A DNA stretch of 64,000 nucleotides from Halorussus limi. GTDB taxonomy: Archaea; Halobacteriota; Halobacteria; Halobacteriales; Haladaptataceae. The stretch lies in the NCBI RefSeq assembly GCF_023238205.1, contig NZ_CP096661.1, positions 1-64,000 on the forward strand, given 5' to 3'. The notes under the pieces are model-generated. The model ran no database searches. It had not been told where the DNA came from and saw only the letters and a list, made by a program, of their open reading frames with translations. The position numbers were made by a program, and so were the translations under genes. Positions 14,417 to 30,881 of this stretch are shown piece after piece; position 1 is the first letter of the stretch; each line of letters begins with the position of its first letter.

Positions 14417-14439
14417 GGCCGACACGAGCATTGGTACCT

Positions 14440-15240
14440 ATGCTCCCAACAGGACGCTCCTCGTCCGCCGCGTGGGCGGCGAAGACTCGACGCGAAATCC
14501 GCGAGACCGGAGCTGCCGACGGATCGGTCGTCGTCGTACCGGTCGGAAGCATCGAACAGCACGGTCACCACCTTCCCGTCGCCACCGACACGCTACTGGC
14601 CGACGCGGTCGCTCACCGCGGCGCGGAACGCGCCGCGGACGACGTACCGGTGCTCGTGACGCCGCCGGTCTGGTCCGGGTTCTCGCCCCACCACACCTCG
14701 CTGGGCGGCACGTTGACGCTCGAACTGGAGGATCTCCTCGCAGTCTTGGAGGACGTGGCCGACAGCGCGCTCGAAAGCGGATTCGACGGCATCTGCTTCG
14801 TCAACGGGCACGGGGGCAACGCCTCCATCATCGACAACGTCGTGAGTACGGTGGGGAAATCGCACCCCGACGCGGAAGTGACCGGGCTGACGTACTTCCA
14901 ACTCGCGGAACCGTTCATCGACGAGATTCGGGAGAGCGACGTGGGCGGCATGGCTCACGGCGGCGAGTTCGAAACCTCGCTCTTGCTCCACCTCCACCCA
15001 GACCTCGTGACGATGGCGGAGGCGGACGCCGAGTACCTCGACGAACCGTACGAGCGCGGGACGCAGGACCTGCTCGTCGGCGGCGCGCTCTCGACCTACC
15101 GGGAGTTCGAGGAGTACTCCGCGTCGGGCGCTATCGGCGACCCGTCGTTGGCGAGCGCAGAGAAAGGCGAGGAGTTGTTCGACCGACTGGGCGACGAACT
15201 GGCCGACGTGTTCCGGTCGGTCTCCGAGCAGGCGCGATAG
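14440..15240 (+). CDS. Creatininase-family metal-dependent amidohydrolase
   Basis: A 266-residue member of the creatininase/MftE superfamily. Metal-binding residues are recognisable: E39 and H41 in GSIEQHGHHLP, D50 in ATDT, H124 in NGHGGN, and E176 in HGGEFETS. These enzymes hydrolyse amide bonds, often cyclic or short, using two divalent metals in the cytoplasm. Nothing in the window suggests creatinine metabolism. In this context it may open an amide in a murein-derived compound, but that is speculation. It is transcribed towards the NagZ operon and is the only plus-strand gene between the chitinases and the HAD gene at 21382. Confidence 0.88.
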   Translation: MLPTGRSSSAAWAAKTRREIRETGAADGSVVVVPVGSIEQHGHHLPVATDTLLADAVAHRGAERAADDVPVLVTPPVWSGFSPHHTSLGGTLTLELEDLLAVLEDVADSALESGFDGICFVNGHGGNASIIDNVVSTVGKSHPDAEVTGLTYFQLAEPFIDEIRESDVGGMAHGGEFETSLLLHLHPDLVTMAEADAEYLDEPYERGTQDLLVGGALSTYREFEEYSASGAIGDPSLASAEKGEELFDRLGDELADVFRSVSEQAR

Positions 15241-15252: not shown

Positions 15253-16842
15253 TCACCGCTCGTCGGGCATCGTGACCGGGAGTCGGCCGGTCGGTTCCCG
15301 GTCGCCGACGAGCACCTCCGCGACGGCCGCGAGCGACGGGGGAGTGGCGTCGTACGTCGTCAGATACGTCTCGACGTCCGGGAACTCGGCGAGGTCGTAG
15401 GGATTGCGGGTCGCGACGACCACCGCGCTCGCGTCTGCCGCGAGGAGGTCCCGAACCGCGGCCGCCTGCTCGGGGTCCGCGGCGGCGTCGGACGTTCGCA
15501 CGACCGTCGGGGCGTCGGACGCCGCGAACTCGGGCGTCTCGCCGGGGTCGAGAACCGTCGCGTCCACCGTCGCCCCCGCGTCCGAGAGCGCCGCTGCGAG
15601 CGCACCGCTGTCGTCGCGGCGTTCCTCGGCGAGCGAACTCCGGGTGGCGTCGAACTCGTAAACCGAGACGGGTTCCCGGGGAAGCGGCAGGGCGTCGCCG
15701 TCGTCGCGGACGAGCGTGACGGCGCGTTCGGCGACGCTCCGCGCGACGGCGCGACAGTCCGAGGCGGCGGCCTCCGACTCCGCTTCGTCGCCGACGGTGC
15801 CCGCGCCGTACGCCCGCTTCGCCCGGAGAACGCGCCGGACCGATTCGTCGATGCGCGACTCCGAAATACGTCCGGATTCGACGGCGGCCACGACGGCGTC
15901 GATGGCCGCGCGCTGTTTCTCCGGCGTGTGTGAGACGCAAATCTGGTCACAGCCCGCTTCGACCGCCTGCACGCAGCCTTCGACCGTCCCGACGCCGTCG
16001 GCGATGGCGTCCATCTCCATGCAGTCGGTGAAGACGAGTCCGTCGAAGCCGAGTTCCTCGCGGAGGAGACCCGTGACGACGCGGGGCGAGAGCGTCGCCG
16101 GGCGCTCGGCGTCCGCCGCGATGGTCGGGAACGCGACGTGAGTCGTCATGACGGCGCCGATACCGGCGTCGACGGCCCGGCGAAACGGCCGGAGTTCGAC
16201 GCGGTCGAGGCGGTCGCGGTCGTGGTCGATGACCGGCAAGTCGCGGTGGGAATCGATCGCGGTGTCGCCGTGTCCCGGGAAGTGCTTCCCGCAGGCCACG
16301 ACGTTCGCGTCCTGTAACCCGTCGGCGAACGCGGTGCCGAGTTCCGCGACGGTCTCGGGACGCTCGCCGAACGAGCGAACGCCGATGACCGGGTTGTCGG
16401 GGTTGTTGTTCACGTCGAGGACGGGCGCGAGGTCCACGTCGATGCCCAGCGACCGGAGTTCGCGCCCGACCGCTCGGCCGGCCCGCACCGCCAATTCGGG
16501 GTCGTCGGCCGCGCCGAACGCCATCGCGCTCGGCTGTTGGGTCCCCCACGAGAGTCGCGCGACCCGGCCGCCCTCCTGGTCGATGCTTACGAGCAGCGGC
16601 GGCCCGCCGTCGGGCACGAACCCCTGTAGCGTCCGAGAGAGCGTCCGGAGTTGGGCGGGCGACTCGACGTTGCGACTGAAGTAGATGACGCTGCCGAGGT
16701 GGCGCTCGGCGACCAGCGCCTCGATTTCGGCGGTCGGAGCGGTCCCGTCGAAACCAGCGACGAATAACTGTCCCACCTTCGCGTCGAGCGACAGCGACGA
16801 AACGGTCGATTCGACGTCGGAATGAGTCGTGTTAGCGTCCAT
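15253..16842 (-). CDS. nagZ: GH3 beta-N-acetylglucosaminidase (NagZ-like)
   Basis: A 529-residue two-domain GH3 enzyme. The NagZ signature KHFPGHGDTAIDSH (186-199) supplies the Asp-His acid/base dyad (D197, H199). The nucleophile is D273 in VFTDCMEMDAI. SIDQEGGRVARL is the substrate-binding block. The C-terminal alpha/beta domain (about 360-529) resembles the two-domain Bacillus enzyme and not the single-domain proteobacterial form. It removes non-reducing GlcNAc from GlcNAc-MurNAc or chitobiose. There is no signal peptide, so it probably works inside the cell, unlike the secreted Bacillus enzyme. It follows the NamZ stop by 5 bp, hence one operon. Confidence 0.95.
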   Translation of the reverse strand: MDANTTHSDVESTVSSLSLDAKVGQLFVAGFDGTAPTAEIEALVAERHLGSVIYFSRNVESPAQLRTLSRTLQGFVPDGGPPLLVSIDQEGGRVARLSWGTQQPSAMAFGAADDPELAVRAGRAVGRELRSLGIDVDLAPVLDVNNNPDNPVIGVRSFGERPETVAELGTAFADGLQDANVVACGKHFPGHGDTAIDSHRDLPVIDHDRDRLDRVELRPFRRAVDAGIGAVMTTHVAFPTIAADAERPATLSPRVVTGLLREELGFDGLVFTDCMEMDAIADGVGTVEGCVQAVEAGCDQICVSHTPEKQRAAIDAVVAAVESGRISESRIDESVRRVLRAKRAYGAGTVGDEAESEAAASDCRAVARSVAERAVTLVRDDGDALPLPREPVSVYEFDATRSSLAEERRDDSGALAAALSDAGATVDATVLDPGETPEFAASDAPTVVRTSDAAADPEQAAAVRDLLAADASAVVVATRNPYDLAEFPDVETYLTTYDATPPSLAAVAEVLVGDREPTGRLPVTMPDER

Positions 16843-16847: not shown

Positions 16848-18014
16848 TCAGTAGCGGAGGTACTTCCCGCGCACGTCGGCGAACTCGGCGAGGTCGTCCT
16901 CCCAGTGGGCGGTGACGTCCGCCGCGATTTCGCGGGGTTCGCTCGTAGAGTCGGCGGCGTCGATAGTCTCGCGCAGGTAGCTACCGCCGGCGAGTTTGTC
17001 CACGAAGAACTCGTCGTCGTACTTTATCCACTCGCACTCGTCGTGAGAGGTGAACGCCGACGCGAGGACCGTGAGACCGACCATCACGGGGTCCACGGCG
17101 TCGCGGTCGAGGACGTGGACCTGCACGCCGGTCACGTTCTCGTGTTCGTGCTTCGAGAATGTCGGGGAGAAGTACGCCGGGCGGAACGCGACGCCGTCGA
17201 GGTTCTGGGCCGACAGTTCCGCTGCCCACTCGGCGGCGTCTATCCACGGCGCGCCGACGAGTTCGAAGGGCTTGGTCGTCCCGCGGCCCTCCGAGAGGTT
17301 CGTCCCCTCGAAGAAGCCCATGCCGGGGTACAGCGTCGCGGTTCCCGGCGTCGGCATGTTCGGCGAGGGGTACACCCACGGCAGGTCGGTGTCGGAGAAC
17401 CAGTCCGAACGCGACCAGTCGCGCATCTCGACGACTTCGAGCGTCGCGCCGATGTCGAACTCCTCGTTGAAGTACGTCGCCAGTTCGCCGACCGTCAGGC
17501 CGTGAACGATGGGGAGTTCGTACGCGCCGACGAACGAGGACGCCGACTCCTCGACCCGGTTGCCCGTGACCGACACCGGCGCGATGGGGTTCGGTCGGTC
17601 GAGGACGACCATGCGCTTTCCGGCCTCGGCGACGCCTTCGAGCGCGTACGCCAGCGTGTAGATGAGCGTGTAGAAGCGACACCCGACGTCCTGCATGTCG
17701 TAGATGACGGTGTCCACGTCCGACACCATCTCCGGGCGGAGTTGTCGCTGTTCGCCGTAGAGGCTCTTGACCGGGAGACCGGTTCGGTCGTCGGTGCTGT
17801 CGTCGACCTTGACGCCCGCCTGCGCGTCGCCCCGGATGCCGTGTTCGGGGCCGAACAGTTTCCGGAGGTCGAACGCGTCGCGGTCGTCGAGCAGGTCGAT
17901 TGTGGTGTTGAGGTCGCTGTCGGTCCCGGAGGGGTTCGTGATGAGTCCGAGTCGGTCGCCCTCGACCGCGCCGGAGCGGTCGTCTAACAAGCGTTCTACG
18001 CCCAGTTGAACCAT
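16848..18014 (-). CDS. namZ: NamZ-type exo-beta-N-acetylmuramidase (DUF1343, GH171)
   Basis: A 388-residue DUF1343 protein. Family blocks in order are LFGPEHGIRG (53-62), DMQDVGCRFYTLIYTL (106-121), LDRPNPI (138-144), VYPSPNMPTPGT, and EGTNLSEGRGTTKPFE (236-251), followed by GAPWID. Characterised members cleave terminal MurNAc from the non-reducing end of murein chains, leaving GlcNAc ends for NagZ. Length is normal for the catalytic domain, and there is no export signal. Just upstream is a TIM-barrel protein; immediately downstream is NagZ. The NamZ-NagZ pairing is the classical Bacillus muropeptide rescue arrangement, here in an archaeon without murein. Confidence 0.94.
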   Translation of the reverse strand: MVQLGVERLLDDRSGAVEGDRLGLITNPSGTDSDLNTTIDLLDDRDAFDLRKLFGPEHGIRGDAQAGVKVDDSTDDRTGLPVKSLYGEQRQLRPEMVSDVDTVIYDMQDVGCRFYTLIYTLAYALEGVAEAGKRMVVLDRPNPIAPVSVTGNRVEESASSFVGAYELPIVHGLTVGELATYFNEEFDIGATLEVVEMRDWSRSDWFSDTDLPWVYPSPNMPTPGTATLYPGMGFFEGTNLSEGRGTTKPFELVGAPWIDAAEWAAELSAQNLDGVAFRPAYFSPTFSKHEHENVTGVQVHVLDRDAVDPVMVGLTVLASAFTSHDECEWIKYDDEFFVDKLAGGSYLRETIDAADSTSEPREIAADVTAHWEDDLAEFADVRGKYLRY

Positions 18015-18137: not shown

Positions 18138-19313
18138 TCACTGTCCGAGGTGCGGGGCGGCCTCGTCGAACCAGTCGAGGTGGGCGTCGCTCATGAGCGC
18201 GTGGTTGTAGACGTGAACCTCGTCGGCGAGGTCGGAGACGCCGTCGACTATCCCCCGCCACTCGGTCTCGGTCCCGACCACGTCGGGGTCGAGCGTCACC
18301 CCGGCGTCGACCGGCACGTCCACCGCCTCCCGGTACCGCCGAACGCGGCGGCGGGCGAGTTCCCGGTCGTCGGTGTAGCAGAGCGCGACGATTCGGTCCA
18401 AGTGGGGCCGAATCCGGTCGAGGACGACGCCCGCGGGCCACCCGTCGTTCGGGTCCCGACCGAGGCCGTCCGACGCCGAGTAGGTGAGGTCGATCCCACC
18501 GCTGGCGGCCGCCACGCCCTCCACGAACGTCTCGATGACCGACGCCCGGAAGTCGAAGAGGTCCTCCAGCACGGGACGGTCCGCGACGAGGCGTTCGAGC
18601 GAACTCACCTGCGGCGTCGGTTCGCTCACGACGTCCCGGACTAGAGACCGGACGACCGAGCGGGCGCGGTCGAAATCGACGGGGTGGTCGGCCGCTCGCT
18701 CCCGGCAGGCCGAACAGAAGCACTGCGAGACGAGCATCTCCTCGGCCGCCCCGCTGACGACGTGGTTCTTCGCGTGGCCGAACGTCGCACCGTGACCGTG
18801 GAAGGCGCTCGGGAACCCGAGCGATTCGAGGTTGATGGCTTCGATGTCGTACTCGGCGAGCGAGCGCGCGACGTCCTCGAAGTAGGCGCGAACCGCCGGT
18901 TGCGACGGGCAGAACGCGTGTTCGTGGTCGTCGCCGAACGCGCTCTGGACGCGGAGCGCGGGGTTCTCCGCGCCGAGTTTCGAGTTGTGAAAGCAGACCA
19001 GCCACGCGTTCACGTCGATGCCGCTCTCGCGGAGCAGTTCGACCACGTCGCCGAACGGGTCGGCGCGCCCGTCCACCTCGTTCACCGGCGGGTCGACGGA
19101 CGTGTCGGCGAACGCCCCTCGGTCGGGATCGAAGTAACAGCCGCCTTCGTACGATTCGAACAGACCGTTCTCCGCGCGCGGGTCGAGCGTTCGGATAGAG
19201 TGGTAGTGTGCGGCGACGGTGACGCTCGTCACGCCCATCTCGACGAACTCGCGTCTCGTCTCGGCGGGGTCCTGTGAGAGCAGTCGCCACGGATAGCTCC
19301 AGACTGCGACCAT
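18138..19313 (-). CDS. TIM-barrel glycosidase-like protein with Cys cluster
   Basis: A 391-residue protein; the ATG at 19313 is preferred over an in-frame TTG nine bases earlier. It reads like a (beta/alpha)8 hydrolase-related protein: VAVWSYPWRLL, VTVAAHYHSIRTL, VNAWLVCFHNSK, EAINLESLGFP, GGIDLTYSASDG and VYNHALMSD mark successive strands. A CFCSAC motif after the fourth strand is a likely metal or structural site. A similar Cys cluster occurs in the protein at 36020. Such proteins are often annotated as alpha-amylase-like or GHL proteins; the substrate is unknown. Its place at the head of the NamZ-NagZ operon suggests a glycan-related task. Confidence 0.75.
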   Translation of the reverse strand: MVAVWSYPWRLLSQDPAETRREFVEMGVTSVTVAAHYHSIRTLDPRAENGLFESYEGGCYFDPDRGAFADTSVDPPVNEVDGRADPFGDVVELLRESGIDVNAWLVCFHNSKLGAENPALRVQSAFGDDHEHAFCPSQPAVRAYFEDVARSLAEYDIEAINLESLGFPSAFHGHGATFGHAKNHVVSGAAEEMLVSQCFCSACRERAADHPVDFDRARSVVRSLVRDVVSEPTPQVSSLERLVADRPVLEDLFDFRASVIETFVEGVAAASGGIDLTYSASDGLGRDPNDGWPAGVVLDRIRPHLDRIVALCYTDDRELARRRVRRYREAVDVPVDAGVTLDPDVVGTETEWRGIVDGVSDLADEVHVYNHALMSDAHLDWFDEAAPHLGQ

Positions 19314-19335
19314 ATCACTCAAGGCGTGCGATTTG

Positions 19336-19423: not shown

Positions 19424-20464
19424 TCAATCGAACTTCCCGGCGGCGACCATCGCGTGGAATCGCTCGCGGAACCGAACGAGACCCGTGTCCTTCCCGTCGT
19501 GGACCTGGTTCGTGAGCAGTACGGCGAACCGGTCGCGGTCGTGGTCTAGCCAAAGCGACGTCCCGGTGTAGCCGGTGTGACCGAGTCCGCGCCGCGACCA
19601 GTTCGGCGCGGGGTAGGTCCCGTCGGCGAGTCGCCACCCGAGACTGTGACGCTCCTCGCAGTCCGGGAGCCAGTCGTCCCGGAGTCGTTCGACGGTGGCG
19701 GCCGAGAGGAGCGTCCCGTCGGCGGCGAGGTACGCCCGCGCGAACGCCGCGAGGTCGTCGACGGTCGTGAACAGTCCGGCGTTGCCGCTGTGTCCGTCCA
19801 TCGCCCACCCCAGCGGGTCGTGTACCTGCCCTCTGAGCGTGCGGTCCCGGTAGTCGTGGTCGTACGTCGCGGCGACGTTCTCTTCGTCGCTCACCGGACC
19901 GAGACGCGAGGCGTCCATTCCGGCGGGGTCGAAGACGCGGGTCTCGGCGAGTTCGTCTAGCGGGCGACCGGTCGCGCGCCGGAGCGCCTCCGCCAGATAG
20001 ACGAAGTTGAGACAGCTGTACTCGTGTCGCTCGCCGGGGGCGGCGTCGAGCAGCGAGCGGTCCCGAAGGCCCGCGAGCGCCTCGGACGCCGAACTCCACG
20101 ACTCCGAGAAGGCATATGGTTGCAGGCCGGAGCTATGAGTGAGAAGCTGGTCCAGTCGAATCTCGCCGCGACGGCGCCCCGCCAACTCGGGAACGTGACG
20201 GCCGAGTTCGTCCGAGAGCGCGATGTCGCCGGACTCGACGAGCGCGAGCGCAGTCGTGGCCGTCACGACCGGTTTGGTGAGCGAGGCGGCGTCGAACACC
20301 GTCGAGCGAGTCGTCGGGGCGTCGCGATCGGGGTCGCGCAGACCGACGGTGGAGACTCGGTCGATGCCGTCTGCGGTGCCGACCGCCGCCGCGGCGCCGG
20401 GGTAGACGCCGTCGGCGAGTCCGCGGGTCAGAAACGCTTCGAGGGGCGCGTTCGAGCGTGTCAT
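19424..20464 (-). CDS. Serine hydrolase of the beta-lactamase/PBP4* family, AmiE-like
   Basis: A 346-residue PF00144-type serine hydrolase. The S-x-x-K motif is SLTK (S61, K64), the Tyr motif is YSCLN (Y149), and HTG (296-298) replaces the class C KTG triad. The region VPELAGRRRGEIRLDQLLTHSSGL is typical. In Bacillus the N-acetylmuramoyl-L-alanine amidase AmiE of the muropeptide rescue operon belongs to this same family and sits beside nagZ and namZ. The same neighbourhood here makes an AmiE role likely, though esterase or D-peptidase activity is possible. No signal peptide is visible, so it is probably cytoplasmic. It is a separate transcription unit upstream of the NamZ operon. Confidence 0.88.
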   Translation of the reverse strand: MTRSNAPLEAFLTRGLADGVYPGAAAAVGTADGIDRVSTVGLRDPDRDAPTTRSTVFDAASLTKPVVTATTALALVESGDIALSDELGRHVPELAGRRRGEIRLDQLLTHSSGLQPYAFSESWSSASEALAGLRDRSLLDAAPGERHEYSCLNFVYLAEALRRATGRPLDELAETRVFDPAGMDASRLGPVSDEENVAATYDHDYRDRTLRGQVHDPLGWAMDGHSGNAGLFTTVDDLAAFARAYLAADGTLLSAATVERLRDDWLPDCEERHSLGWRLADGTYPAPNWSRRGLGHTGYTGTSLWLDHDRDRFAVLLTNQVHDGKDTGLVRFRERFHAMVAAGKFD

Positions 20465-20614: not shown

Positions 20615-21235
20615 TCAGTACGAGTTGACGAGGTCGATGTAGTAGTCCCAGTCCCAGTTGGCACCGGGGTCGGTGTGCGTGCTCTCGGGCACCTGCGAGT
20701 GGGCGATGATACCGCCGTTGGCCGGGTTCGCCGCGTCGTACGGGACGTTCGACGGGTGCTGCTTCGGGACGCCGTACTGGTCACAGAGCCAGCTGGCGAG
20801 CTTGGCCGACGCCCGGTACTGGGCGTCCTCGTAGCTCTCGCTGACGTAGCCGCCGTGTTCGATGCCGACCGAGTACGTGTTGTAGTTCGACCCGCCCGCG
20901 TGCCACGCGATGTTGATGTCGCTGACGCTCTGGTACTTGTGGCCGCCCTCGGAGACGGTGTAGTGGGCGCTCACGTCGGCGTCGGGGTCCTGGAACCAGT
21001 TGACCGCACTGCTGGCCGACCCCTGCACGGTGTGGATGACGATCCAGTCGATCTTGCCCGCACCGCGGTCCGCGGCCGTGTAGTTGCTCGAGTCGGCCGG
21101 TTCCCAGTCGACGGCCGGCTTCGCCGCCGCGGTACCGCTACCCAGTGCTGCGCCGCCGAGGCCGACCACACCGGCCGTGGCAGCGCGCTTCAGTACGTCT
21201 CGCCGAGTCGATTTCGCATCGTTGTTTTCTTGCAT
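20615..21235 (-). CDS. Tat-exported N-acetylmuramoyl-L-alanine amidase (Amidase_2/PGRP fold)
   Basis: A 206-residue secreted protein. Its Tat signal is STRRDVLKRAATAG (RR 11-12), with cleavage near GTAAA. The mature part is an Amidase_2 domain. Zinc ligands are H68 in IVIHTVQG, H179 in IIAHSQVP and D189 in HTDPG; the catalytic acid is E126 in VGIEHGG. NWDWDYY near the end matches the family. These enzymes cut the MurNAc-L-Ala bond of murein and release stem peptides. It lacks a wall-binding module. In an archaeon it can only target foreign cell wall, for feeding or antagonism. All catalytic positions are intact. Confidence 0.93.
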   Translation of the reverse strand: MQENNDAKSTRRDVLKRAATAGVVGLGGAALGSGTAAAKPAVDWEPADSSNYTAADRGAGKIDWIVIHTVQGSASSAVNWFQDPDADVSAHYTVSEGGHKYQSVSDINIAWHAGGSNYNTYSVGIEHGGYVSESYEDAQYRASAKLASWLCDQYGVPKQHPSNVPYDAANPANGGIIAHSQVPESTHTDPGANWDWDYYIDLVNSY

Positions 21236-21381: not shown

Positions 21382-22065
21382 ATGACGTACGACGCGATTC
21401 TGTTCGACGTGGACGGCGTCCTGCTGGATCTACACGCGGACCATCCGAGCGTCTATCGGCAGGCGGTGGCGACGACCTTCGACGAGTTCGGCGTCTCGCC
21501 CGGGGACGCCGACCTCGACGCGTTCGTCTCGGGGGCGACGGTCGAGGAGATGCGCCGGACGTGTTCCGAACACGGCGTCGAGTTCGAGACGTTCTGGCCG
21601 CGACGCGAGACCAACGCGTCGGACCTCCAGTGCGAGATGATGGACGACGGCGAACGCCTCCCGTACGGCGACTGCGCCGTCCTACACGAACTCGTCGACG
21701 AACACGATATGGGCGTCGTCAGCAGCAACCAGCACGCGACCGTCGAGTACATGCTGGCGCGTTTCGACCTCGAACACCTGTTCGACGCGGTGTACGGTCG
21801 AGAACCGACGGTCGAGGGGTTCCGACGGACCAAACCCGACACCCACTACGTCGAGCGAGCGATGGCCGACCTTGGCGTGGCGGAGGGACTGTACGTCGGC
21901 GACAGCGCCTGCGACGTGTCGGCCGCCCGCCGCGCGGGTCTCGATTCGGCTTTCGTCCGCCGGCCACACCGCGAGGACTACGCGCTCCCGGAAGAACCGA
22001 CGTACGAGATTTCGTCGCTCGTCGCGCTTCTCGACCTTCCCGGCGTCGCTCCGTCGTCGTCGTAG
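21382..22065 (+). CDS. HAD-superfamily sugar-phosphatase-like protein (possible MupP analogue)
   Basis: A 227-residue HAD hydrolase. Motif I is FDVDGVL (D9, D11), motif II is VSSNQ (S114), motif III is K151 in RTKPDT, and motif IV is GDSACD (173-178). A helical C1 cap gives the phosphoglycolate/beta-phosphoglucomutase-like layout. Between the amidase and AnmK it is well placed to dephosphorylate MurNAc-6-phosphate, as MupP does in Pseudomonas. That is inferred from position only, since HAD substrates cannot be read from these motifs. It is transcribed convergently with anmK, so it is a separate unit. Confidence 0.87.
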   Translation: MTYDAILFDVDGVLLDLHADHPSVYRQAVATTFDEFGVSPGDADLDAFVSGATVEEMRRTCSEHGVEFETFWPRRETNASDLQCEMMDDGERLPYGDCAVLHELVDEHDMGVVSSNQHATVEYMLARFDLEHLFDAVYGREPTVEGFRRTKPDTHYVERAMADLGVAEGLYVGDSACDVSAARRAGLDSAFVRRPHREDYALPEEPTYEISSLVALLDLPGVAPSSS

Positions 22066-22592
22066 ATTCGAACTCGTTCCGTTCTCTCGGCCTCGTTTTC
22101 TCGACTCCGAGAATTCCGGCGTATTTTCGCCGTCTTCGGTCGTCTTGCGGCGTTGCAGACGCCAGCACTCCGATTCGATTCTACCGAATCAGACTTCAGG
22201 ACATCGGCGTCGGAGATACGCAGTCGTAACAGCTCCGGCATGATTCGACTCTGTTCGAAGGCGTTTCTGCCTAGCCGAAATAGGAGGAAGACCAGTTCTA
22301 CCGCGTATTTATCGGGGTATCAGGTATAACCTTCCGATATCTACCCTTTACACCTCTAGTTCTGTAATGGCAACGTAAACGGTCGAATGGGGTGCGTTTC
22401 GCGCCGGTTTACTACGCTCGGCGGCGTTACGAGGAAAATCCGGCGCTTTCAGTCTGGTCGAAAGGGGAGACTGTCGGCGGACAGGCGCATCGCTCCGCCG
22501 ACGAGGCGGAGTCGACCAGCGTTCAAATGGCGAAAAAGTAGTTCACCGGAGTCGAAACGACCGGAATCGACGGCGAGAGAGTACCGACGCTC
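22066..22592. other. 527-bp convergent intergenic region, no gene recognised
   Basis: The region lies between two convergent genes. An AT-rich patch around 22300-22375 contains TATA-like words, but no supported gene follows. Open frames here have Arg-rich, non-haloarchaeal translations and are rejected. It is unusually long for a convergent gap, so a short RNA or remnant is possible. Confidence 0.45.
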
Positions 22593-23819
22593 TTACCGCG
22601 GCGGGCAGCGCTTCCCCATCACCACGGGGCGGGACGCGCCGGTCGCCTCGGGAACGTTGTTCGGAACCCCGTCCATCGCCGCGGCGGCGAGCAGAGCGAA
22701 GGCGACGGCCTCCTTCTCGTCGGCACCGACGCCGTACTCGTTGACGGTGCGCACCTCGGCTTCCACCGCGTCGTCGAGCATCCCGACGAGCGCCGGGTTG
22801 TACGCGCCGCCGCCGGAGACGACCACCTCGTCCGGGGTTCGCGGGAGGAACCGGCGGTAGGCGTCCGCGATGGAGCGAGCGGTCAGCGCGGTGGCGGTGG
22901 CGACGGCGTCCTCGTCCGAGAGGTTTCGAGCGCGACACGCGTCGAGAAACTTTCGGGCGTACGCCCGACCGAACCGCTCGCGCCCGGTCGATTTCGGCGG
23001 TTCGGAGCGGAAGTAGTCGTCGTCCAAGCACTCCTCGAGGAGCGCCTCGTCGACGGTTCCCGCGCGGGCGAGACACCCGTCGCGGTCGTACGTCCGTTCG
23101 CCGTCGGTCAGCAACTCCACGACGCCGTCGATGACCATATTCCCCGGCCCGGTGTCGAAGGCCGACACGTCGCCGCGGGTCGGGTCCGGCGGTAGCGCGG
23201 TGCAGTTGGCGATACCGCCGACGTTCTGGGCGACGCGAAAGCGGGTGTCGTCGGCCAGCAGGGCGAGGTCGGCGAACGGGACGAGCGGTGCGCCGTGGCC
23301 GCCGACTGCGACGTCCGCTGTTCGGAAGTCCGCCACCGTAGGCACGCCGGTTCGCTCGGCGACGACGCTGCCGTCGCCGATTTGTAGCGTCGAGCGCAGT
23401 CGGTCGTCGCCGACCGGGAGCGACTGCGGTTCCGGAACGTGGCGAATCGTCTGGCCGTGCGACCCGATTGCGTCCACGTCCGCGAGCGAGAGACCGGCGG
23501 CGTCCGCGGCGTCTTCGGCCGCGGCAGCGAACACCGCGCCGAGCGCCACGTTCAACTCGCACGCGTCGGCGACGGTTCCCGCCTCGCCACACGCCGCCGC
23601 GATTCGCTCGCGGAACGCGGGGTCGTACGGGCGCGTGACGAACGATTCGACGCTCACATCGTAGCCGCGCGGCCCGTCGCCGTCCCGGCGAATCCGACAG
23701 CAGGCGGCGTCCACGCCGTCGAGGGACGTGCCCGACATGAGACCGACGACGGTGCGCTCGCCGACTTCCTCGGGGGCGCATCGCTGGCGTCGGCGCGCGT
23801 CGAGTGACGCGTCGCTCAC
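22593..23819 (-). CDS. anmK: Anhydro-N-acetylmuramic acid kinase
   Basis: A 408-residue AnmK. The ATP-binding start GLMSGTSLDG (26-35), GSHGQT (119-124), DFRTADVAVGGHGAPLVP (164-181, containing the likely general base D169), NVGGIANCTALP (199-210) and FDTGPGNMVID (221-231) are all conserved. AnmK hydrates and phosphorylates 1,6-anhydro-MurNAc to MurNAc-6-phosphate. The start is a GTG overlapping the stop of the upstream acetyltransferase (GTGA); the conserved N-terminus leaves little room for another choice. The substrate arises only from lytic transglycosylase action on murein, so an archaeal copy points to scavenging. No MurQ etherase is present in the window. Confidence 0.95.
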   Translation of the reverse strand: MSDASLDARRRQRCAPEEVGERTVVGLMSGTSLDGVDAACCRIRRDGDGPRGYDVSVESFVTRPYDPAFRERIAAACGEAGTVADACELNVALGAVFAAAAEDAADAAGLSLADVDAIGSHGQTIRHVPEPQSLPVGDDRLRSTLQIGDGSVVAERTGVPTVADFRTADVAVGGHGAPLVPFADLALLADDTRFRVAQNVGGIANCTALPPDPTRGDVSAFDTGPGNMVIDGVVELLTDGERTYDRDGCLARAGTVDEALLEECLDDDYFRSEPPKSTGRERFGRAYARKFLDACRARNLSDEDAVATATALTARSIADAYRRFLPRTPDEVVVSGGGAYNPALVGMLDDAVEAEVRTVNEYGVGADEKEAVAFALLAAAAMDGVPNNVPEATGASRPVVMGKRCPPR

Positions 23820-24793
23820 GCCGAGACCTCCTTTTCCAGCGTCTCGTACGCCAGCCATGGCTCGAATCCGAGTTTCCGGTAGTAGTCGAGCAGTCCCGTC
23901 CAGTCGATGACCGTCCGGTCGTACCGAGCGTCGCGGTACCGTTCGACGATGGTAGCTATCATCCACAGTCCCCAGCCGCGACCCCGGTACGACTCGTGAA
24001 CGCCGAGCGGACCGAGACCGCAAACGGCACCGTCGAGGCGGTCGGCCCAGTTGACGTTCGCGCCGCGGTACGTCGAGTCCGGCGTGTTGGTCCGCGCGAA
24101 TCCGACGGCCGTCCCGTCGTGTCGGAGGAGCCAGTAATCGGTGCCGCCGCCGGGAACGCGACAGACGTTTCGCGCCTCGTAGTACCAGCGTCCCGGGAAC
24201 TGGTCGGCGAGGAACGAGCGGAGGTCGGCGTCGTCTGCGCCCACGCGCTCGACGGTCAGGTCCGGCCACGACTCGCCGACGCGGGCGACGCGCTCGCCCG
24301 GGTCGAACCCAGCGATGTCGCGTTGCAGGTCGTGGACGGTCCCGCGCGATTCGAACCCCGCGTCGCGGAGCGTCTCGCGGAGGCGGTCGAACTCGGTCGG
24401 CGCTCCGGGGAGGACCTGTCCGGGGTCGCCGCCGAAGCGGAGACGAGACACGCCGCGGTCGGTCGCGGCGCGCTCGACCGTCGCGAGCAGTTCGTCGGCG
24501 ACGGCGCGCCGGTCGGCGACCGACGGGTCCACGGCGAACAGGCTAATCCAGCCCTGTTCGGGACCGGCGTAGTCGGGAATCCTCTCCACGAGTCGCTTTC
24601 CGACCGCGACGGCGACGACGCTCCCCTCTGAGACCGCGCCCCACGCAGTCACGTCGAGACCGTCGAAGGGGGCGAACACGCTCTGGGTCACTACTCGCTC
24701 GGGGAGCGAAAAACCCGGATGCGCGCGATTCCAGCAGTCGATACCGTCGCGGACAGTGGTGTAGTCGGTGAGCCTGCGAACCTCGAACTCCAT
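23816..24793 (-). CDS. Tandem GNAT-type N-acetyltransferase
   Basis: A 325-residue protein with two GNAT-like halves. The N-half (about 1-150) contains ISLFAVDPSVADRRAVADELL, an eroded motif A. The C-half contains LGPLGVHESYRGRGWGLWMIATIV, a good acetyl-CoA pyrophosphate-binding motif (R/Q-x-x-G-x-G), and ends with IDWTGLLDYYRKLGFEPW. The C-half is the probable catalytic unit. An ATG at 24793 is preferred over the GTG one codon earlier. It overlaps anmK by 4 nt, so the two are translationally coupled. Acetylation of a glucosamine or muramic acid derivative is plausible but only inferred. Confidence 0.83.
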   Translation of the reverse strand: MEFEVRRLTDYTTVRDGIDCWNRAHPGFSLPERVVTQSVFAPFDGLDVTAWGAVSEGSVVAVAVGKRLVERIPDYAGPEQGWISLFAVDPSVADRRAVADELLATVERAATDRGVSRLRFGGDPGQVLPGAPTEFDRLRETLRDAGFESRGTVHDLQRDIAGFDPGERVARVGESWPDLTVERVGADDADLRSFLADQFPGRWYYEARNVCRVPGGGTDYWLLRHDGTAVGFARTNTPDSTYRGANVNWADRLDGAVCGLGPLGVHESYRGRGWGLWMIATIVERYRDARYDRTVIDWTGLLDYYRKLGFEPWLAYETLEKEVSA

Positions 24794-24846
24794 CACCCTC
24801 CGTCTTCCTCGCGGGAGTACTTATAGGCCGGCGACGGTCGGACCCG

Positions 24847-25686
24847 TCACTCGGCGTCGCCGCGGCCGTCCGTCGGCGGGTCGTCGATGTCGTACATCAT
24901 CGTCTCCAGTCGCTGGTCGAGACCCGCCGTGAGACCGCCGTCGATGGCGAGTTCGGCGCCCGTGACGAACGACGCCTCGTCGGACGCGAGAAAAGCCACG
25001 GCGGCCGCCACGTCCTCGGGGCGGCCGAACCGGTCGACCGGATACTGATTTAGCCACTCCTCGCGGACCGGTCCCTCGCTGGTGAGTTTCTCGCTCGACG
25101 CGTCGGTGATGATGCTCCCCGGACAGACCGCGTTCGAGCGGACGCCGTGTCGCCCGTACTGCGTGGCGATAATCCGAGACAGCGCGAGGACACCGTTCTT
25201 CGACGCGGAGTAGGCGGCGAGACCGATGCCGAGTCGGGCGTTGACCGAGGAGACGTGGACCATCGCGCCGCCGCCCGACTCGACCATCGCCGGGAGCGTC
25301 TCGCGCGCACAGAGGAACTGCCCTTTGAGGTTCACGTCCACGATTCGGTCCCACGTCTCCTCCGTGACTCGGTCCGGATTCCCGTCGTCGAACGAACCGC
25401 CGGCGTTGTTCACGAGCACGTCCACGCTCCCGTGGGCGTCCATCGTCGCCTCGACCATCGTCGAAACGTCGGTCGCGTCGCTCACGTCGGTGCGGACGAA
25501 CTCGGCGGTGCCGCCGTCGTCCTCGATTGCGGCAACCGTCTCCGCACCGCCTTCTGCGTCCACGTCAGCCACGACTACGGTGGCGTCCTCGGCGGCGAGG
25601 CGTCTGGCGATAGCCCGGCCGATACCGTTGCTCGCTCCGGTGACGATAGCGACGTCTCCGCTTCGACTGCGGTCGCTTCTGTCCAT
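24847..25686 (-). CDS. Short-chain dehydrogenase/reductase
   Basis: A 279-residue classical SDR. The cofactor motif is TGASNGIG (16-23), D41 after VVVAD favours NAD(H), NNAG is at 93-96, and the catalytic S147, Y159 and K163 are present (SSVNARLG, YSASK). The C-terminal loop GAELAIDGG is typical, with an unusual 20-residue acidic tail. It is the first gene of a three-gene minus-strand run with the acetyltransferase and anmK. It may oxidise or reduce a sugar or sugar acid; D-lactate, the MurNAc side chain, is less likely as SDR substrate. Specificity is unknown. Confidence 0.88.
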   Translation of the reverse strand: MDRSDRSRSGDVAIVTGASNGIGRAIARRLAAEDATVVVADVDAEGGAETVAAIEDDGGTAEFVRTDVSDATDVSTMVEATMDAHGSVDVLVNNAGGSFDDGNPDRVTEETWDRIVDVNLKGQFLCARETLPAMVESGGGAMVHVSSVNARLGIGLAAYSASKNGVLALSRIIATQYGRHGVRSNAVCPGSIITDASSEKLTSEGPVREEWLNQYPVDRFGRPEDVAAAVAFLASDEASFVTGAELAIDGGLTAGLDQRLETMMYDIDDPPTDGRGDAE

Positions 25687-25830: not shown

Positions 25831-27816
25831 ATGGTTAACGATAACCATGTCACCGGTGGCGACACCGACGGAAACAGGGTGACTCGGCGGCAGTGGCTCG
25901 CGCTCGGCGGTGGCGCGGCGCTGACAGGATTGGCCGGTTGTAGCGGCGACAACCCGAACGAGACGGACGTGACGATGAGTTCGAAGCCGGACGAGACCGA
26001 CACCACCGGCGAGACGGACACCGAGCAGAGCGGTGGTTCGCCCGTGACAACGACGCTCAACATGCGCGCGCCGGTCAGTTGGCAACCGAGTAAGTCGAAC
26101 GTCAATCCGTTCACCGACACCAAGAACACCGAGTACTGGATGGACTACATGTGGTCGGAGTCGCCGGTGTACCCGAACGCTCGGGGCGAACCCATCTACT
26201 GGCTCGCCGACGAGATAAACCTCAAGGGCGGCGGTTGCGAGGTCCACATCAAACTCAGCGAGGACTACACGTGGTGGGACGGTACCCCGGTAACTGCGAA
26301 AGACGTTCACACGACCCAGCTCATCAGCGACTACAAGAACTACATGGGTCCCGACCAGACCGAAGATAGCTGGGAGGTCGTGGACAAGTACACCGTCAAG
26401 AACGTCCTGCCCGGTCCGGCCAACCCCTCGCTGAAGAAGTCCCAGTACTACTCGGTCGTCGCCAAACACGACTACTTCAAGTCGTGGTTGGAGAAGTACG
26501 AGGACGCGAGCAACGAGAGCGCCGTCAAGCAGGTGACCAAGAACCTCCAAGAACACCGGATAACGCTGAACGACCTCACGGAGAAGGGGTTAGGCTGTGG
26601 CCTCTGGAAGCCGACGCAGCTCTCGCCGACGAAAGCCGTCCACGAGAAGTATCAAGACCACCCGCGCGCCGACTGGACGAACCTGGAAACGTTCAACTGG
26701 CACCTCATCTCCGAGAAACAGAAGGCGATTCAGGCGCTCAAGACCGGAAAGCTGGACATGGGCGACAAGACCGTCACGCAGGCCCAGTCCAACGACAGAG
26801 TCAGCATCTTCAACCGGTTCGGCACCTCCAGCATCGTGAAGTTGGCGATGAACTGGAACAACGAGCACCTCGCCCGCCGGCCGGTCCGCCGCGCCATCGC
26901 GTACCTCCTCGACCACGACGAACTGGTCAAGATAATCAAGACGACGCAGGGGCTGAAGTACAAGTCCCGAAGCACCGTCAACGGGTTGTCCTCGAAGCAG
27001 GCCCAGAAGTGGGGCGGGAAGAGCTTCCAGAACAAACTCATCGGCTACGGTCGAAAGTCACAGCCGGAGAAGGCGAAGAAGGTCCTGCAGGACGCCGGCT
27101 ACTCGAAGAAAGGCGGCGTCTGGGTCGGGCCGAACGGGAGCAAGGTCAACGACCTCACCTACCTGACGCCGCCGTGGAACATCTACGAGACCATCGGGAA
27201 CTACCTCAGCCCGAAACTCGACAAGTTCGGATTCAAGAACAAACTCATCATCCCGTCGTCGAGCGGCTTCTGGAAGCGGTGGACCGACACCCACGACTTC
27301 GACATGGTCAACTGGTTCTCGAACACCTCACACCCGGGGAACGCCTTCGCGACCAACAGCGTGGCCGGTCTGGGCAAGTACAACGAAGTCGCCACCGTCA
27401 AGCAACCGAAGGGCAAGTGCAAGGTCAATCGCACGACGCCCGAACTCAGCCAGCCGCGGAGCAAGAAACTCAACCACCCCATCCGGCCGAAGTTCCCGAA
27501 GAAGGTGGGCACAATGGGAACCGGGGGCGAGCAACAGACGCTCTACCCCGTCAAGTGGAACGACATCATCACCCAAACCCAGTCCGCGGACGAGGTCAAG
27601 AAGTACGCCAAGAAGTTCATGTGGTACATGAACTGGCAGGTGCCTCACATCGGCTTCTACGACGAGACGAGGGCGTACTGGGGCAACACCGACAAGTTCA
27701 ATTTCCCCACCGGAAAGGTGGACGACCACCCGAACGCCAAGGAGACGAAGTCGGAACACTTCACGAACGCGATGGAGTTCCTCTCGAAGGGTCACATCAG
27801 CGCGAAGACCAAGTGA
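25831..27816 (+). CDS. Tat lipoprotein substrate-binding protein of an oligopeptide-type ABC importer
   Basis: A 661-residue SBP_bac_5-type receptor. The Tat motif VTRRQWLALGG (RR 19-20) ends in lipobox LAGC (C37), so it is exported folded and lipid-anchored. A Ser/Thr/Asp-rich linker (about 38-75) precedes the binding domain. YTWWDGTPVTAKDVH is the family signature, and RRPVRRAIAYLLDHDELV is also typical. The protein is unusually rich in lysine for a secreted haloarchaeal protein. With the permease and ATPase genes downstream it would import peptides, muropeptides or chitooligosaccharides; the family covers all three. It stands alone before a gap holding two opposite-strand small genes. Confidence 0.92.
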   Translation: MVNDNHVTGGDTDGNRVTRRQWLALGGGAALTGLAGCSGDNPNETDVTMSSKPDETDTTGETDTEQSGGSPVTTTLNMRAPVSWQPSKSNVNPFTDTKNTEYWMDYMWSESPVYPNARGEPIYWLADEINLKGGGCEVHIKLSEDYTWWDGTPVTAKDVHTTQLISDYKNYMGPDQTEDSWEVVDKYTVKNVLPGPANPSLKKSQYYSVVAKHDYFKSWLEKYEDASNESAVKQVTKNLQEHRITLNDLTEKGLGCGLWKPTQLSPTKAVHEKYQDHPRADWTNLETFNWHLISEKQKAIQALKTGKLDMGDKTVTQAQSNDRVSIFNRFGTSSIVKLAMNWNNEHLARRPVRRAIAYLLDHDELVKIIKTTQGLKYKSRSTVNGLSSKQAQKWGGKSFQNKLIGYGRKSQPEKAKKVLQDAGYSKKGGVWVGPNGSKVNDLTYLTPPWNIYETIGNYLSPKLDKFGFKNKLIIPSSSGFWKRWTDTHDFDMVNWFSNTSHPGNAFATNSVAGLGKYNEVATVKQPKGKCKVNRTTPELSQPRSKKLNHPIRPKFPKKVGTMGTGGEQQTLYPVKWNDIITQTQSADEVKKYAKKFMWYMNWQVPHIGFYDETRAYWGNTDKFNFPTGKVDDHPNAKETKSEHFTNAMEFLSKGHISAKTK

Positions 27817-28327: not shown

Positions 28328-28426
28328 ACGCGAACGTGCGGCGCGGGCGTAATGAGCCTTCCTCTCTCTGTGCGAAGAACCCCCATAGCTTTATTGAGGT
28401 GGGAGAAATACAGGCAGGATAGCACG

Positions 28427-29452
28427 ATGTATTATGCGAAGCGAATCGGCCAATCAGTGCTGGTGTTTTTCATCGCACTGACAGTAACGTTCGCTCTCTA
28501 CCGGATGTTACCGTTCGGTCCGGTCGAGATGGTCAAGGTTCGACTGATGAAACAACTGATCGAACAGGGCCAGAGCCCGTCGGCCGCGCAGATGCAGACC
28601 ATCAACTCGATGGTCAAAACGTACACCGGTATCGACCCGTCGGTGCCGTGGTACGTCTCCTACTACGAGTACCTGAAGAACATCGTCCTCTATCAGGACT
28701 TCGGGCGGTCGATATTCAAGAACAAGCCTGTGTTCGACATCCTCTTCCGAGCGATGCCGTGGTCGGTGTTCATCAGCATCTACGGCCTCGCGCTCGGGAC
28801 GACCGTCAGTCTGCTGTTCGGCGCCGTCATGGCGTACAACGAGGGGAGCAAGTTCGACGCCGTGATGACCATCGTCTCCATCGGCAACAGCACGGTTCCC
28901 TACTACGTCGTCGCCATCCTCACGCTCATCGTCTTCTCGTTCAACCTCGGGTGGTTCCCCAGCGGGGGGCGCATGAACCCCTCGACGACGCCCGGCCTCA
29001 ACTTGCCGTTCATCGTCGGCGTCGTCAAGCACGCGGCGCTCCCGGTCTTCTCGGCGTTCATCGCCAGTTTCGGCGGCGCGCTGGCGTTTCGCGGCAACTG
29101 CATCCGCGAGATGGGCGAGGGATACATCCGTGTCGCCCGACTTCGCGGCATCAGTCAGGGTCGAATCGCGATTCGCTACGTCGGCCGTAACGCGCTGTTG
29201 CCCGTCTACACCAACATCATGATGGGCATCGCGAGCGTCTTCGGGAGCAGCATCATCCTCGAGACGATATTCAACTACCCTGCGATGGGGATGGTGACGT
29301 TCAACGCGCTCATGAACCGGGACTACCCGCTCATCATGGGGTCGTTCATCTTCTTCACGATAATCACGCTGTTGGGCATCCTCGTCGCCGACCTCACGTA
29401 CGGTATCATCGACCCGCGCGTCAAAGGAGGGAAGGAACGTGAAACCTACTGA
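28427..29452 (+). CDS. ABC transporter permease, DppB/OppB type
   Basis: A 341-residue membrane permease. It begins MYYAKRIGQSVLVFFIALTVTFALYRMLP, the first membrane helix, followed by a large external loop and about five more helices. The cytoplasmic EAA-type coupling loop is YIRVARLRGISQGRIAIRYVGRNALLP. The start at 28427 is chosen because upstream in-frame codons belong to the antisense zinc-ribbon region, and a TATA-like GCTTTATT lies about 35 nt upstream. It overlaps the next permease by 14 nt. It forms the channel with the DppC-type protein. Confidence 0.92.
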   Translation: MYYAKRIGQSVLVFFIALTVTFALYRMLPFGPVEMVKVRLMKQLIEQGQSPSAAQMQTINSMVKTYTGIDPSVPWYVSYYEYLKNIVLYQDFGRSIFKNKPVFDILFRAMPWSVFISIYGLALGTTVSLLFGAVMAYNEGSKFDAVMTIVSIGNSTVPYYVVAILTLIVFSFNLGWFPSGGRMNPSTTPGLNLPFIVGVVKHAALPVFSAFIASFGGALAFRGNCIREMGEGYIRVARLRGISQGRIAIRYVGRNALLPVYTNIMMGIASVFGSSIILETIFNYPAMGMVTFNALMNRDYPLIMGSFIFFTIITLLGILVADLTYGIIDPRVKGGKERETY

Positions 29453-30506
29453 CGACCCGACCGAATCGGCCGACGACGCCGACGGTGCGGCCGTTCGCAC
29501 CGACGGCGGAACCGGTAGCCGCTCCGGCGGGACCGGCGGCGTGGACGAGACGCTGTTCACGCAGACGTCGAACGTGCCCGACCCGACGGTCCGCGAGAAG
29601 GTCGAGCGAGCGTTCGAGCGCCGCGTCTACGCCCCCGCGGCGATACTCCTGAACGATTGGCGGGGACTCGTCGGGTCGGTCATCCTCGTCGGATTCGTCC
29701 TCATGGGGACGGTCGGCGTCTACGTCGTTCCCGAACCCACCGTGATGGAGGGGCCCATCTTCGTGCCGCCGTTCACGAACTGGTCGTACCCGCTCGGGAC
29801 CGGCGTGATGGGCGAGTCACTCTTCAAGCAAGTCGTTCACGCGACGCCCGCGATGTTGCAGATGATAACCGCCGGTGCGCTGCTCTCGGTCGTCCTCGGG
29901 ACCGGAATCGGAACCGTCGCGGGCTACCGCGGCGGTCGCACCGACAAGACCCTGATGACGCTGACCGACACCGTCCTCACGATTCCGGGGCTGGTCCTCA
30001 TCATCGTGCTGGCGACAATCTATCAGCCCGAAAACCCCTTCGTGGTCGGTCTCATCCTCGGCATCGACAACTGGCCGCGGCTGGCGCGAACCATCCGCTC
30101 GCAGGTGTTGAGCATCCGCGAGGAGGCGTTCACCGAGGCGTCGCGCATCATGGGGCTGTCGGACCCCCACATCCTCCGCCGAGACGTCATCTCGAACCTG
30201 ATGCCGTACATCACGGTGAACTTCGCCAACAGCGCGCGCCGCATCATCTTCGAGTCGGTCGCGCTATACTTCCTCGGCATCCTTCCCCAATCGCAACTCA
30301 ACTGGGGCGTGATGATGGACGACGCGTACACCGGCGCGAACCTGACGAACCCGAACCAGATTCACTGGTTGCTGGTTCCGATGGCGCTCATCGTCCTCAT
30401 CTCGCTCGGGTTCATCCTGCTGGCGCAGGGACTCGACCGCGTCTTCAACGTCAAACTCCGGGCCCGCCACGAGGGGTCGGCGAACGGCGGAGGTGACGCG
30501 ACGTGA
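29439..30506 (+). CDS. ABC transporter permease, DppC/OppC type
   Basis: A 355-residue permease starting at a GTG inside the end of the previous gene. A disordered acidic N-terminal extension (about 1-65) precedes the first helix (WRGLVGSVILVGFVLMGTVGVYVV). The coupling loop is EEAFTEASRIMGLSDPHILRRDVISNLMP, with the EAA motif recognisable. Several further helices follow, ending with the segment LVPMALIVLISLGFILLAQGL. The external loop GTGVMGESLFKQVVHATP is typical of OppC/DppC. It pairs with the upstream permease; both feed from the Tat lipoprotein receptor. Confidence 0.92.
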   Translation: MKPTDDPTESADDADGAAVRTDGGTGSRSGGTGGVDETLFTQTSNVPDPTVREKVERAFERRVYAPAAILLNDWRGLVGSVILVGFVLMGTVGVYVVPEPTVMEGPIFVPPFTNWSYPLGTGVMGESLFKQVVHATPAMLQMITAGALLSVVLGTGIGTVAGYRGGRTDKTLMTLTDTVLTIPGLVLIIVLATIYQPENPFVVGLILGIDNWPRLARTIRSQVLSIREEAFTEASRIMGLSDPHILRRDVISNLMPYITVNFANSARRIIFESVALYFLGILPQSQLNWGVMMDDAYTGANLTNPNQIHWLLVPMALIVLISLGFILLAQGLDRVFNVKLRARHEGSANGGGDAT

Positions 30507-30742
30507 GTACCGCATCGACCGGACGCGTGACGTCCGTCCTGCTGGCGATTCGACAGTCGTTCCTCGCCTTCGTTACGGCCATCGGCGTCGGTTGCTGCCT
30601 GCTCGCCGTCCTGCTGTCGGAGTACGTCCTCGCCGGACTGTCGTACGGCGTCCTCGCGGGGATGTTCGCCATCTGGGGCGTGAGCGCGTTCGTCTACGCC
30701 GTCGTCGGCCACCTCGGACTCCGACTCATCGGGTACCGCTAA
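30503..30742 (+). CDS. Small membrane protein coupled to the ABC permeases
   Basis: A 79-residue protein with two clear membrane segments (about 16-38, FLAFVTAIGVGCCLLAVLL, and about 45-68, GLSYGVLAGMFAIWGVSAFVYAV), and a short Arg-containing end. It starts at a GTG overlapping the permease stop (GTGA) and so is translated with it. It lies between the permease and ATPase genes. No known family is recognised. It could be an accessory subunit of the importer, because tight coupling inside a five-gene transport operon is rarely accidental. Confidence 0.7.
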   Translation: MSTASTGRVTSVLLAIRQSFLAFVTAIGVGCCLLAVLLSEYVLAGLSYGVLAGMFAIWGVSAFVYAVVGHLGLRLIGYR

Positions 30743-30876: not shown

Positions 30877-30881
30877 CAGCA

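Follow-up and report, generated by a model that had tools for sequence, protein, structure and literature searches.

A haloarchaeal AnmK locus without MurQ, and an enolase-superfamily candidate for the N-acetylmuramate etherase

Gene content of the AnmK locus

The sequence considered here, referred to as the window, is the first 64,000 nt of contig NZ_CP096661.1 of the haloarchaeon Halorussus limi; the contig is 311 kb long and the genome, of 4.62 Mb, is 99.99% complete. The window encodes AnmK, the kinase of 1,6-anhydro-N-acetylmuramic acid (anhydro-MurNAc), within what its gene content indicates to be a conserved haloarchaeal locus for scavenging peptidoglycan, with the exo-N-acetylmuramidase NamZ, a NagZ-like glycoside hydrolase (GH) of family 3, a PGRP-type amidase and an Opp transporter. 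To our knowledge, haloarchaea make no peptidoglycan themselves, and MurQ is the only lactyl etherase known to act on MurNAc. No MurQ was found in this genome, and an enolase-superfamily protein encoded at the locus, here called MR, is a candidate for its role. The closest named relative of the window is plasmid unnamed3 of Halorussus aquaticus, which has an identical gene order and encodes AnmK and MR proteins of 94% and 99% identity respectively. The genes on which the argument depends are:

11733-12899 and 13076-14431, minus strand: two GH18 proteins with Tat signals (twin-arginine motifs; the homologue in Halorussus aquaticus is annotated as GH18)
14431-15240, plus strand: creatininase-family amidohydrolase, candidate N-acetyl-enamine hydrolase (PF02633, 225 bits)
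15253-16842, minus strand: GH3 beta-N-acetylhexosaminidase, NagZ-like (PF00933, 327 bits; NF003740, 224 bits against a cut-off of 207)
16848-18014, minus strand: NamZ, a GH171 exo-N-acetylmuramidase predicted to yield free MurNAc (PF07075, 272 bits; PF20732, 163 bits)
18138-19322, minus strand: TIM-barrel glycosidase-like protein with no Pfam family, here called ORPH (start at 19313 or 19322)
20615-21235, minus strand: PGRP/Amidase_2 N-acetylmuramoyl-L-alanine amidase (PF01510, 107 bits; Tat-like signal, N-terminus STRRDVLKRA)
21382-22065, plus strand: HAD-IA phosphatase, candidate MurNAc-6-phosphate phosphatase (PF13419, 73 bits)
22593-23819, minus strand: AnmK, 408 aa (PF03702, 332 bits; NCBIfam NF007148, 453 bits)
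23816-24796, minus strand: GNAT family protein upstream of AnmK (PF00583)
24847-25686, minus strand: short-chain dehydrogenase/reductase (SDR), glucose-1-dehydrogenase-like, candidate MurNAc C1 dehydrogenase (NF005559, 241 bits against a cut-off of 215)
25831-27816, plus strand: SBP_bac_5 peptide/muropeptide-binding lipoprotein of Opp (PF00496, 110 bits; twin-arginine motif and lipobox)
28352-33133, plus strand: OppB, OppC, OppD and OppF (PF00528, PF00005/PF08352)
33167-34282, minus strand: MR, enolase superfamily (MR_MLE), candidate N-acetylmuramate lyase, or lactyl etherase (PF13378, 196 bits)
39504-39893, minus strand: RidA enamine/imine deaminase (PF01042, 137 bits; TIGR00004, 153 bits, above its cut-off)

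A reading of this stretch made from the sequence alone had described a full-length AnmK, and the gene product bears this out: it exceeds the cut-off of the curated model NF007148 (387 bits), contains the ATPase motifs MSGTSLDG, DTGPGN and SGGGAYN, and is the sole copy in the genome as judged by a genome-wide profile search. It starts with GTG, in a 4 bp overlap (GTGA) with the stop of the GNAT gene upstream. AnmK was detected in 16 of 391 haloarchaeal genomes, representing 11 of 86 genera. NamZ, which passes both GH171 family models, is present in all 16 of these genomes and in 17 of the 391 overall; Opp-type transporter genes are retained at most AnmK loci.

Absence of the E. coli-type branch

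The same sequence-only reading had noted that the window lacks MurQ, and had suggested that the gene might lie elsewhere. The window is indeed without one, and the rest of the genome is equally empty: TIGR00274, the single MurQ model used genome-wide (cut-off 302 bits), returned only fragments of 25-32 bits, the best scoring 31.6 bits, and the three frames holding these weak SIS/MurQ fragments are GlmS (685-734 bits). A MurQ elsewhere is thereby refuted for this genome and, by the same model, for the 15 others, as none of the 16 haloarchaea bearing AnmK has a match above the cut-off, whereas the model passes it in five control genomes. NagA likewise failed to reach its cut-off of 226 bits in any of the 16 (fragments scored approximately 31 bits or less), and NagB had no match whatsoever in them. 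Because all three genes are without a match above cut-off, it is the entire E. coli-type branch that is absent, rather than a single gene. Searches by tblastn with the MurQ and BadF proteins of three bacterial AnmK loci gave no match across haloarchaeal loci totalling 2.27 Mb; in contrast, AnmK, NamZ, serine hydrolase and Opp proteins of haloarchaea do match these bacterial loci.

Linkage and active site of MR

MR was found at an identity of at least 59% in all 16 AnmK genomes; in 15 of them it shares a contig with AnmK, at a distance of up to approximately 12 kb, and in the sixteenth (G073), a fragmented assembly, it is on another contig. At this threshold it is absent from all 46 genomes of an AnmK-free comparison set, composed of spaced picks and five congeners (Fisher 4e-15), and under a criterion of E<1e-60 it appears in four of the 46, none of them at 59% identity (Fisher 2e-11). 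The linkage persists across several gene orders, gene calls at the compared loci having been made with a simple composition score. MR, at 63-99% identity, also accompanies NamZ on all ten of the NamZ-bearing haloarchaeal plasmids listed. NamZ and MR likewise occur together in Halosolutus gelatinilyticus and Halomontanus rarus, where the stretches seen contain no AnmK; the two genes of Halosolutus overlap by 4 bp and have a lactonase gene nearby. This pairing in the absence of AnmK points to free MurNAc, the product of NamZ, as the source of the MR substrate. In the MR phylogeny, the proteins from NamZ loci form one clade with support of 100/99, neighboured by a group of seven sequences with no NamZ in the stretches seen and a group of 14 from other sugar loci. 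Judged by position and co-occurrence, an enolase of a single clade takes the place of MurQ.

The active site was compared across 27 MR sequences, in all of which K165 and K167 (the KxK motif), the metal ligands D195, E223 and E249 and the Asp-His dyad D272 and H299 are invariant, the latter two residues aligning with the Asp and His of 3ozm. These features (KxK, three acidic metal ligands and the dyad) place MR in the mandelate racemase subgroup. The active sites of this type, found in mandelate racemase and the acid-sugar dehydratases, take the alpha proton of a carboxylate, after which the dehydratases expel the beta substituent. In MurNAc oxidised at C1 the lactyl ether is such a beta substituent, therefore a dehydrogenase would be needed before MR. 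The possibility that MR is an L-Ala-D/L-Glu epimerase was rejected, as the strand-6 position is an Asp in MR and a Lys in the MLE-type relative 3i4k, and the score on NF041118 is 90 bits against a cut-off of 500.

Phage records contain only distant relatives of MR, with less than 60% identity. On one replicon of another genome (G384 C3, loci L077 and L076), MR and its adjoining cassette occur twice, with MR at 3603 and 213802; the two copies are equally identical to that of the window.

Phosphatases and dehydrogenases at AnmK loci

The HAD phosphatase adjoins AnmK, as the sequence-only reading had stated, with catalytic motifs readable as DVDG, SSNQ, TKPD and GDSACD; however, the two genes are convergent, not co-transcribed. 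Locus-specific HAD-IA orthologues (57-76% identity) are found in eight AnmK genomes including that of the window, in every case at the locus, while the paralogues common in other haloarchaea reach an identity of at most 51%. A ninth AnmK locus has a more distant HAD-IA (45% identity), and in five other AnmK genomes an unrelated HAD-IB gene overlaps AnmK by 1-4 bp; the two types are never found together at one AnmK locus. Given that most loci have either a locus-specific HAD-IA or an AnmK-overlapping HAD-IB, dephosphorylation of the AnmK product to free MurNAc by these enzymes is plausible. To this extent the MupP-like bypass that had been suggested survives, although the window protein is not itself a true MupP, scoring 20.6 bits on the NCBIfam MupP model NF009696 against a cut-off of 359. 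Nor can a MupP-type bypass be the end point, since it leads on to the synthesis of peptidoglycan, a process absent from haloarchaea.

In Haladaptatus pallidirubidus (L136:20910-21287), AnmK has shrunk to approximately its last 120 residues, with MR, ORPH, HAD-IB, RidA and NamZ retained around it.

The SDR is encoded near AnmK in 12 of the 16 genomes, and exactly the other four have instead an LLM protein, the closest solved relatives of which are F420-dependent alcohol and glucose-6-phosphate dehydrogenases. The SDR and this FGD-like protein are thus complementary across AnmK loci, but the exchange represents two independent cases at most, since the loci of three of the four genomes (G166, G167 and G047) are closely similar and the fourth belongs to the same genus as the window. 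The creatininase-family gene is near AnmK in 13 of the 16 genomes.

A related module is present on plasmid pHME505 of Haloferax mediterranei (387925-407088, L143), in the order IclR-MalK-creatininase-sugar ABC transporter-GH-MR-SDR-RidA-eda-kdgK1. The eda and kdgK1 genes that follow GH-MR-SDR-RidA encode 2-keto-3-deoxy-6-phosphogluconate aldolase and 2-keto-3-deoxygluconate (KDG) kinase, and a glutamate dehydrogenase gene (gdhB) is nearby, an arrangement suggesting that the module ends at KDG and ammonia. On gene content, this tractable haloarchaeon looks to have an undescribed oxidative route that takes N-acetylhexosamine, or another aldose, to KDG. Haloarcula plasmids also encode MR relatives of similar identity.

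A putative oxidative pathway for MurNAc

The content of the locus, the absence of MurQ, NagA and NagB, the linkage of MR and its active-site residues have each been established by comparison of sequences; the individual reactions we infer as follows. Outside the cell, the PGRP amidase, perhaps with the GH18 proteins, would cut the bacterial wall, and Opp would import the pieces. Inside, NamZ would free MurNAc and the GH3 enzyme GlcNAc, while AnmK would open anhydro-MurNAc to give MurNAc-6-phosphate, which the HAD phosphatase could convert to free MurNAc, such that the NamZ stream and that of AnmK and HAD converge on the same compound. The SDR, or the F420-dependent LLM dehydrogenase in the four relatives, would oxidise MurNAc at C1 to the lactone or aldonate (N-acetylmuramate). 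MR would then remove the acidic C2 proton of N-acetylmuramate and expel D-lactate from C3, leaving an N-acetyl-enamine that the creatininase-family protein and RidA might turn into KDG, acetate and NH3.

Oxidative MurNAc catabolism within a peptidoglycan-scavenging locus, with MR as the etherase, is the reading that we prefer, albeit tentatively: it has a substantial, if not a predominant, chance of being correct. Slightly more tentative still is the wider proposal that haloarchaea eat bacterial peptidoglycan through a non-phosphorylative oxidative pathway, in which MR would constitute a second class of etherase unrelated to MurQ. The sequence-only reading had also raised a new means of removing the lactyl ether, which the comparative evidence favours, but with MR, and not the HAD protein, as the best candidate.

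Other genes of the locus

Further genes in the window are:

10812-11573, plus strand: IclR-family regulator (PF01614, 146 bits)
19424-20464, minus strand: serine hydrolase of the class C beta-lactamase fold (PF00144, 196 bits)
34322-35224, plus strand: PIG-L/CE14 deacetylase (PF02585, 110 bits)
37186-38394, plus strand: DgaE-like pyridoxal phosphate (PLP) lyase of the SelA fold, candidate etherase or glucosaminate lyase (NF047797, 206 bits)
38422-39507, minus strand: medium-chain dehydrogenase of the glucose dehydrogenase family (PF16912, 312 bits)

The DgaE-like lyase belongs only to a related subfamily of its model, scoring 206 bits against a cut-off of 600; its match to PDB 7lc0 has E=2e-47. 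ORPH has no Pfam or NCBIfam match; its predicted fold (AF2 pLDDT 77, pTM 0.83) is nearest in Foldseek to the lytic transglycosylase Cwp19, the C-terminal domain of PgaB and beta-amylase. It is present in all 16 AnmK genomes and in 68 of the 391 haloarchaeal genomes, 52 of these being AnmK-free. ORPH was considered as an etherase and rejected: its Cwp19- and PgaB-like TIM barrel and its relatives in 52 AnmK-free genomes make a glycosidase role likelier.

A 343 aa protein with no Pfam family (36020-37051) recurs with PIG-L, the DgaE-like lyase and RidA near AnmK in eight of the 16 genomes. Two genes more distant from AnmK are an FMN-dependent alpha-hydroxyacid dehydrogenase family member (4559-5635; PF01070), a putative lactate oxidiser 17 kb away, and Rod-determining factor A (RdfA, PF21811; 9540-10181), on the same replicon. 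Three other loci have GHL10 proteins with twin-arginine N-termini near AnmK (L032:10590-12188, L033:7752-9326 and L087), of which those of L032 and L033 share approximately 41% identity with the family-10 GH encoded at the Deinococcus AnmK locus.

Alternative explanations

Several observations weigh against MR being the etherase of an oxidative MurNAc pathway. Its relatives outside NamZ loci carry all the catalytic residues, and no lactyl-binding residue was identified in MR itself; given these shared residues and the NamZ-less sister group of seven sequences, the substrate that MR dehydrates may be a different aldonate, for instance GlcNAc-aldonate. The co-occurrence counts (16/16 against 0/46) share ancestry, so that the genomes are not phylogenetically independent trials. 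HAD-IB is found in AnmK-less loci too, and is retained beside the AnmK remnant of Haladaptatus pallidirubidus, while two AnmK genomes have no HAD of any kind at the locus; moreover, the HAD step is futile if cells rephosphorylate MurNAc. The SDR and LLM proteins occur together in some loci outside those with AnmK, and levoglucosan kinase (LGK) is the nearest solved structure to AnmK.

The most serious of the alternatives, doubtful but deserving of attention, is that MR acts elsewhere, as an N-acetylglucosaminate dehydratase, a lactate racemase or a cell-wall-peptide epimerase, and that either another enzyme (perhaps ORPH or the creatininase-family protein) cuts the ether, or MurNAc is not broken down further and the cells use GlcNAc and peptides alone. 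The relatives with identical catalytic residues in NamZ-less sugar loci fit such a role, and ORPH, which has no known family, is just as universal in AnmK genomes; however, the MR clade of NamZ loci is distinct, the strand-6 Asp makes a dipeptide epimerase unlikely, and a locus purely for GlcNAc or peptides would have no need of NamZ and AnmK. It is improbable, though less so than the remaining possibilities, that the DgaE-like lyase is the etherase and MR catalyses another step. PIG-L would then deacetylate MurNAc, the glucose-dehydrogenase-like enzyme would oxidise it, and PLP-dependent beta-elimination on 2-amino-3-O-lactyl-gluconate would expel lactate, then ammonia. This lyase has D-glucosaminate-6-phosphate ammonia lyase as its closest solved relative, forms a cassette with PIG-L, the glucose dehydrogenase and RidA, and is present in 14 of the 16 AnmK genomes compared to five of the 46 without AnmK (Fisher 4e-8); the same route is predicted for GlcNAc in chitinotrophic haloarchaea (PMC12343721). 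Yet it is missing from two AnmK genomes, seems to belong to the half of the locus that deals with GlcNAc, and, unlike MR, has a tree in which AnmK-bearing and AnmK-free genomes are intermixed, with at least four changes. As its tree does not track AnmK, it is only the second-choice etherase.

The remaining explanations replace the pathway altogether. That 'AnmK' is a kinase of levoglucosan-type 1,6-anhydrosugars, in a locus unrelated to MurNAc, is very unlikely. LGK is its best PDB match (278 bits, against 206 for AnmK), and the diagnostic positions of the haloarchaeal proteins are mixed, 31 being LGK-like, 26 like Pseudomonas aeruginosa AnmK and 21 neither; nevertheless, AnmK-type residues are kept (for example the His of the QTI[R/W]H stretch, GGxGAPL and TGA), NamZ accompanies all 16, and the AnmK of Thermomicrobium roseum, at 50% identity the nearest bacterial one in plasmid records, is encoded alongside NagZ and MurQ. 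Genomic context therefore favours MurNAc over levoglucosan as the substrate. We give even less credence to the HAD protein being a MupP-type MurNAc-6-phosphate phosphatase that feeds Pseudomonas-like AmgK/MurU recycling: it shares the HAD-IA class with MupP and adjoins AnmK, but falls far below the MupP cut-off, and AmgK and MurU would be useless to organisms that make no peptidoglycan. Least credible of all is that MurQ is present and was missed, through an incomplete genome or strong divergence. Models can overlook divergent members and only one was applied, but against this stand the near-complete assembly, the five controls, the agreement of 16 genomes and the identity of the SIS matches as GlmS.

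Significance and comparison with known systems

In the literature we found nothing directly relevant to MurNAc use by haloarchaea. Catabolism of MurNAc, as of other amino sugars, has been stated to start by phosphorylation (PMC9537276), and mycobacteria have been inferred to use a non-MurQ etherase of unknown identity (PMC13041923). A 2025 paper showed bacteria to be killed by peptidoglycan hydrolases of archaeal origin, and raised the question whether they are also eaten (PMC12352652). The locus makes both the question of a non-MurQ etherase and that of bacterial consumption testable, offering a means of import, glycosidases, dehydrogenases and a phosphatase, together with a single, specific candidate etherase whose catalytic residues are defined. 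If the proposal is true, this would be a full archaeal pathway for feeding on the bacterial cell wall.

The AnmK loci of Paenibacillus guangzhouensis, Thermomicrobium roseum and Deinococcus ficus all contain MurQ and a BadF-type kinase. They share AnmK with the haloarchaeal loci and, in at least one of the three, NamZ, GNAT, PIG-L, serine hydrolase, family-10 GH and NagZ genes; a GNAT gene is also present in Paenibacillus, where it follows AnmK, and serine hydrolases are present in Thermomicrobium and Deinococcus, as in the window. The haloarchaeal loci lack MurQ and the BadF kinase, having MR, SDR or LLM, creatininase, RidA and HAD genes in their stead, and hence, in gene content, look like the bacterial locus minus its phosphorylation and etherase block.

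E. coli-type recycling (AnmK/MurP-MurQ-NagA-NagB) has AnmK, a NagZ-type GH3, an amidase and Opp-type import in common with the haloarchaeal AnmK genomes, which differ in lacking MurQ, NagA and NagB. With the MupP-AmgK-MurU route of Pseudomonas (PMC5371407), they may share a HAD phosphatase acting on the AnmK product, but that of the window is not MupP and there is no haloarchaeal peptidoglycan synthesis to feed. Pseudoalteromonas uses GlcNAc-aldonate through the oxidative chitin (Ong) pathway, for which a PLP deaminase, RidA and KDG kinase have been proven by experiment (PMC9537276). The proposed pathway resembles it in that an N-acetylhexosamine aldonate is processed without phosphorylation as far as KDG, and in involving RidA and KDG kinase; the Ong pathway differs in obtaining GlcNAc-aldonate from a lytic polysaccharide monooxygenase, and in using a deacetylase and the PLP deaminase, with no enolase and no lactyl ether. 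For Natrarchaeobius and other chitinotrophic haloarchaea, a GlcNAc route has been predicted (PMC12343721) to which the DgaE homologue is assigned, with CE14/PIG-L, glucose dehydrogenase, a RutC/RidA-like protein and IclR also in common, and a 'galactonate dehydratase' is mentioned; that route concerns chitin only, and the sections consulted do not consider MurNAc, AnmK or lactate removal. Finally, the enolase-superfamily acid-sugar dehydratases share with MR the KxK motif, the Asp-His dyad and the D/E/E metal ligands, but the leaving group that they expel is water, whereas that proposed for MR is lactate, released from an ether.

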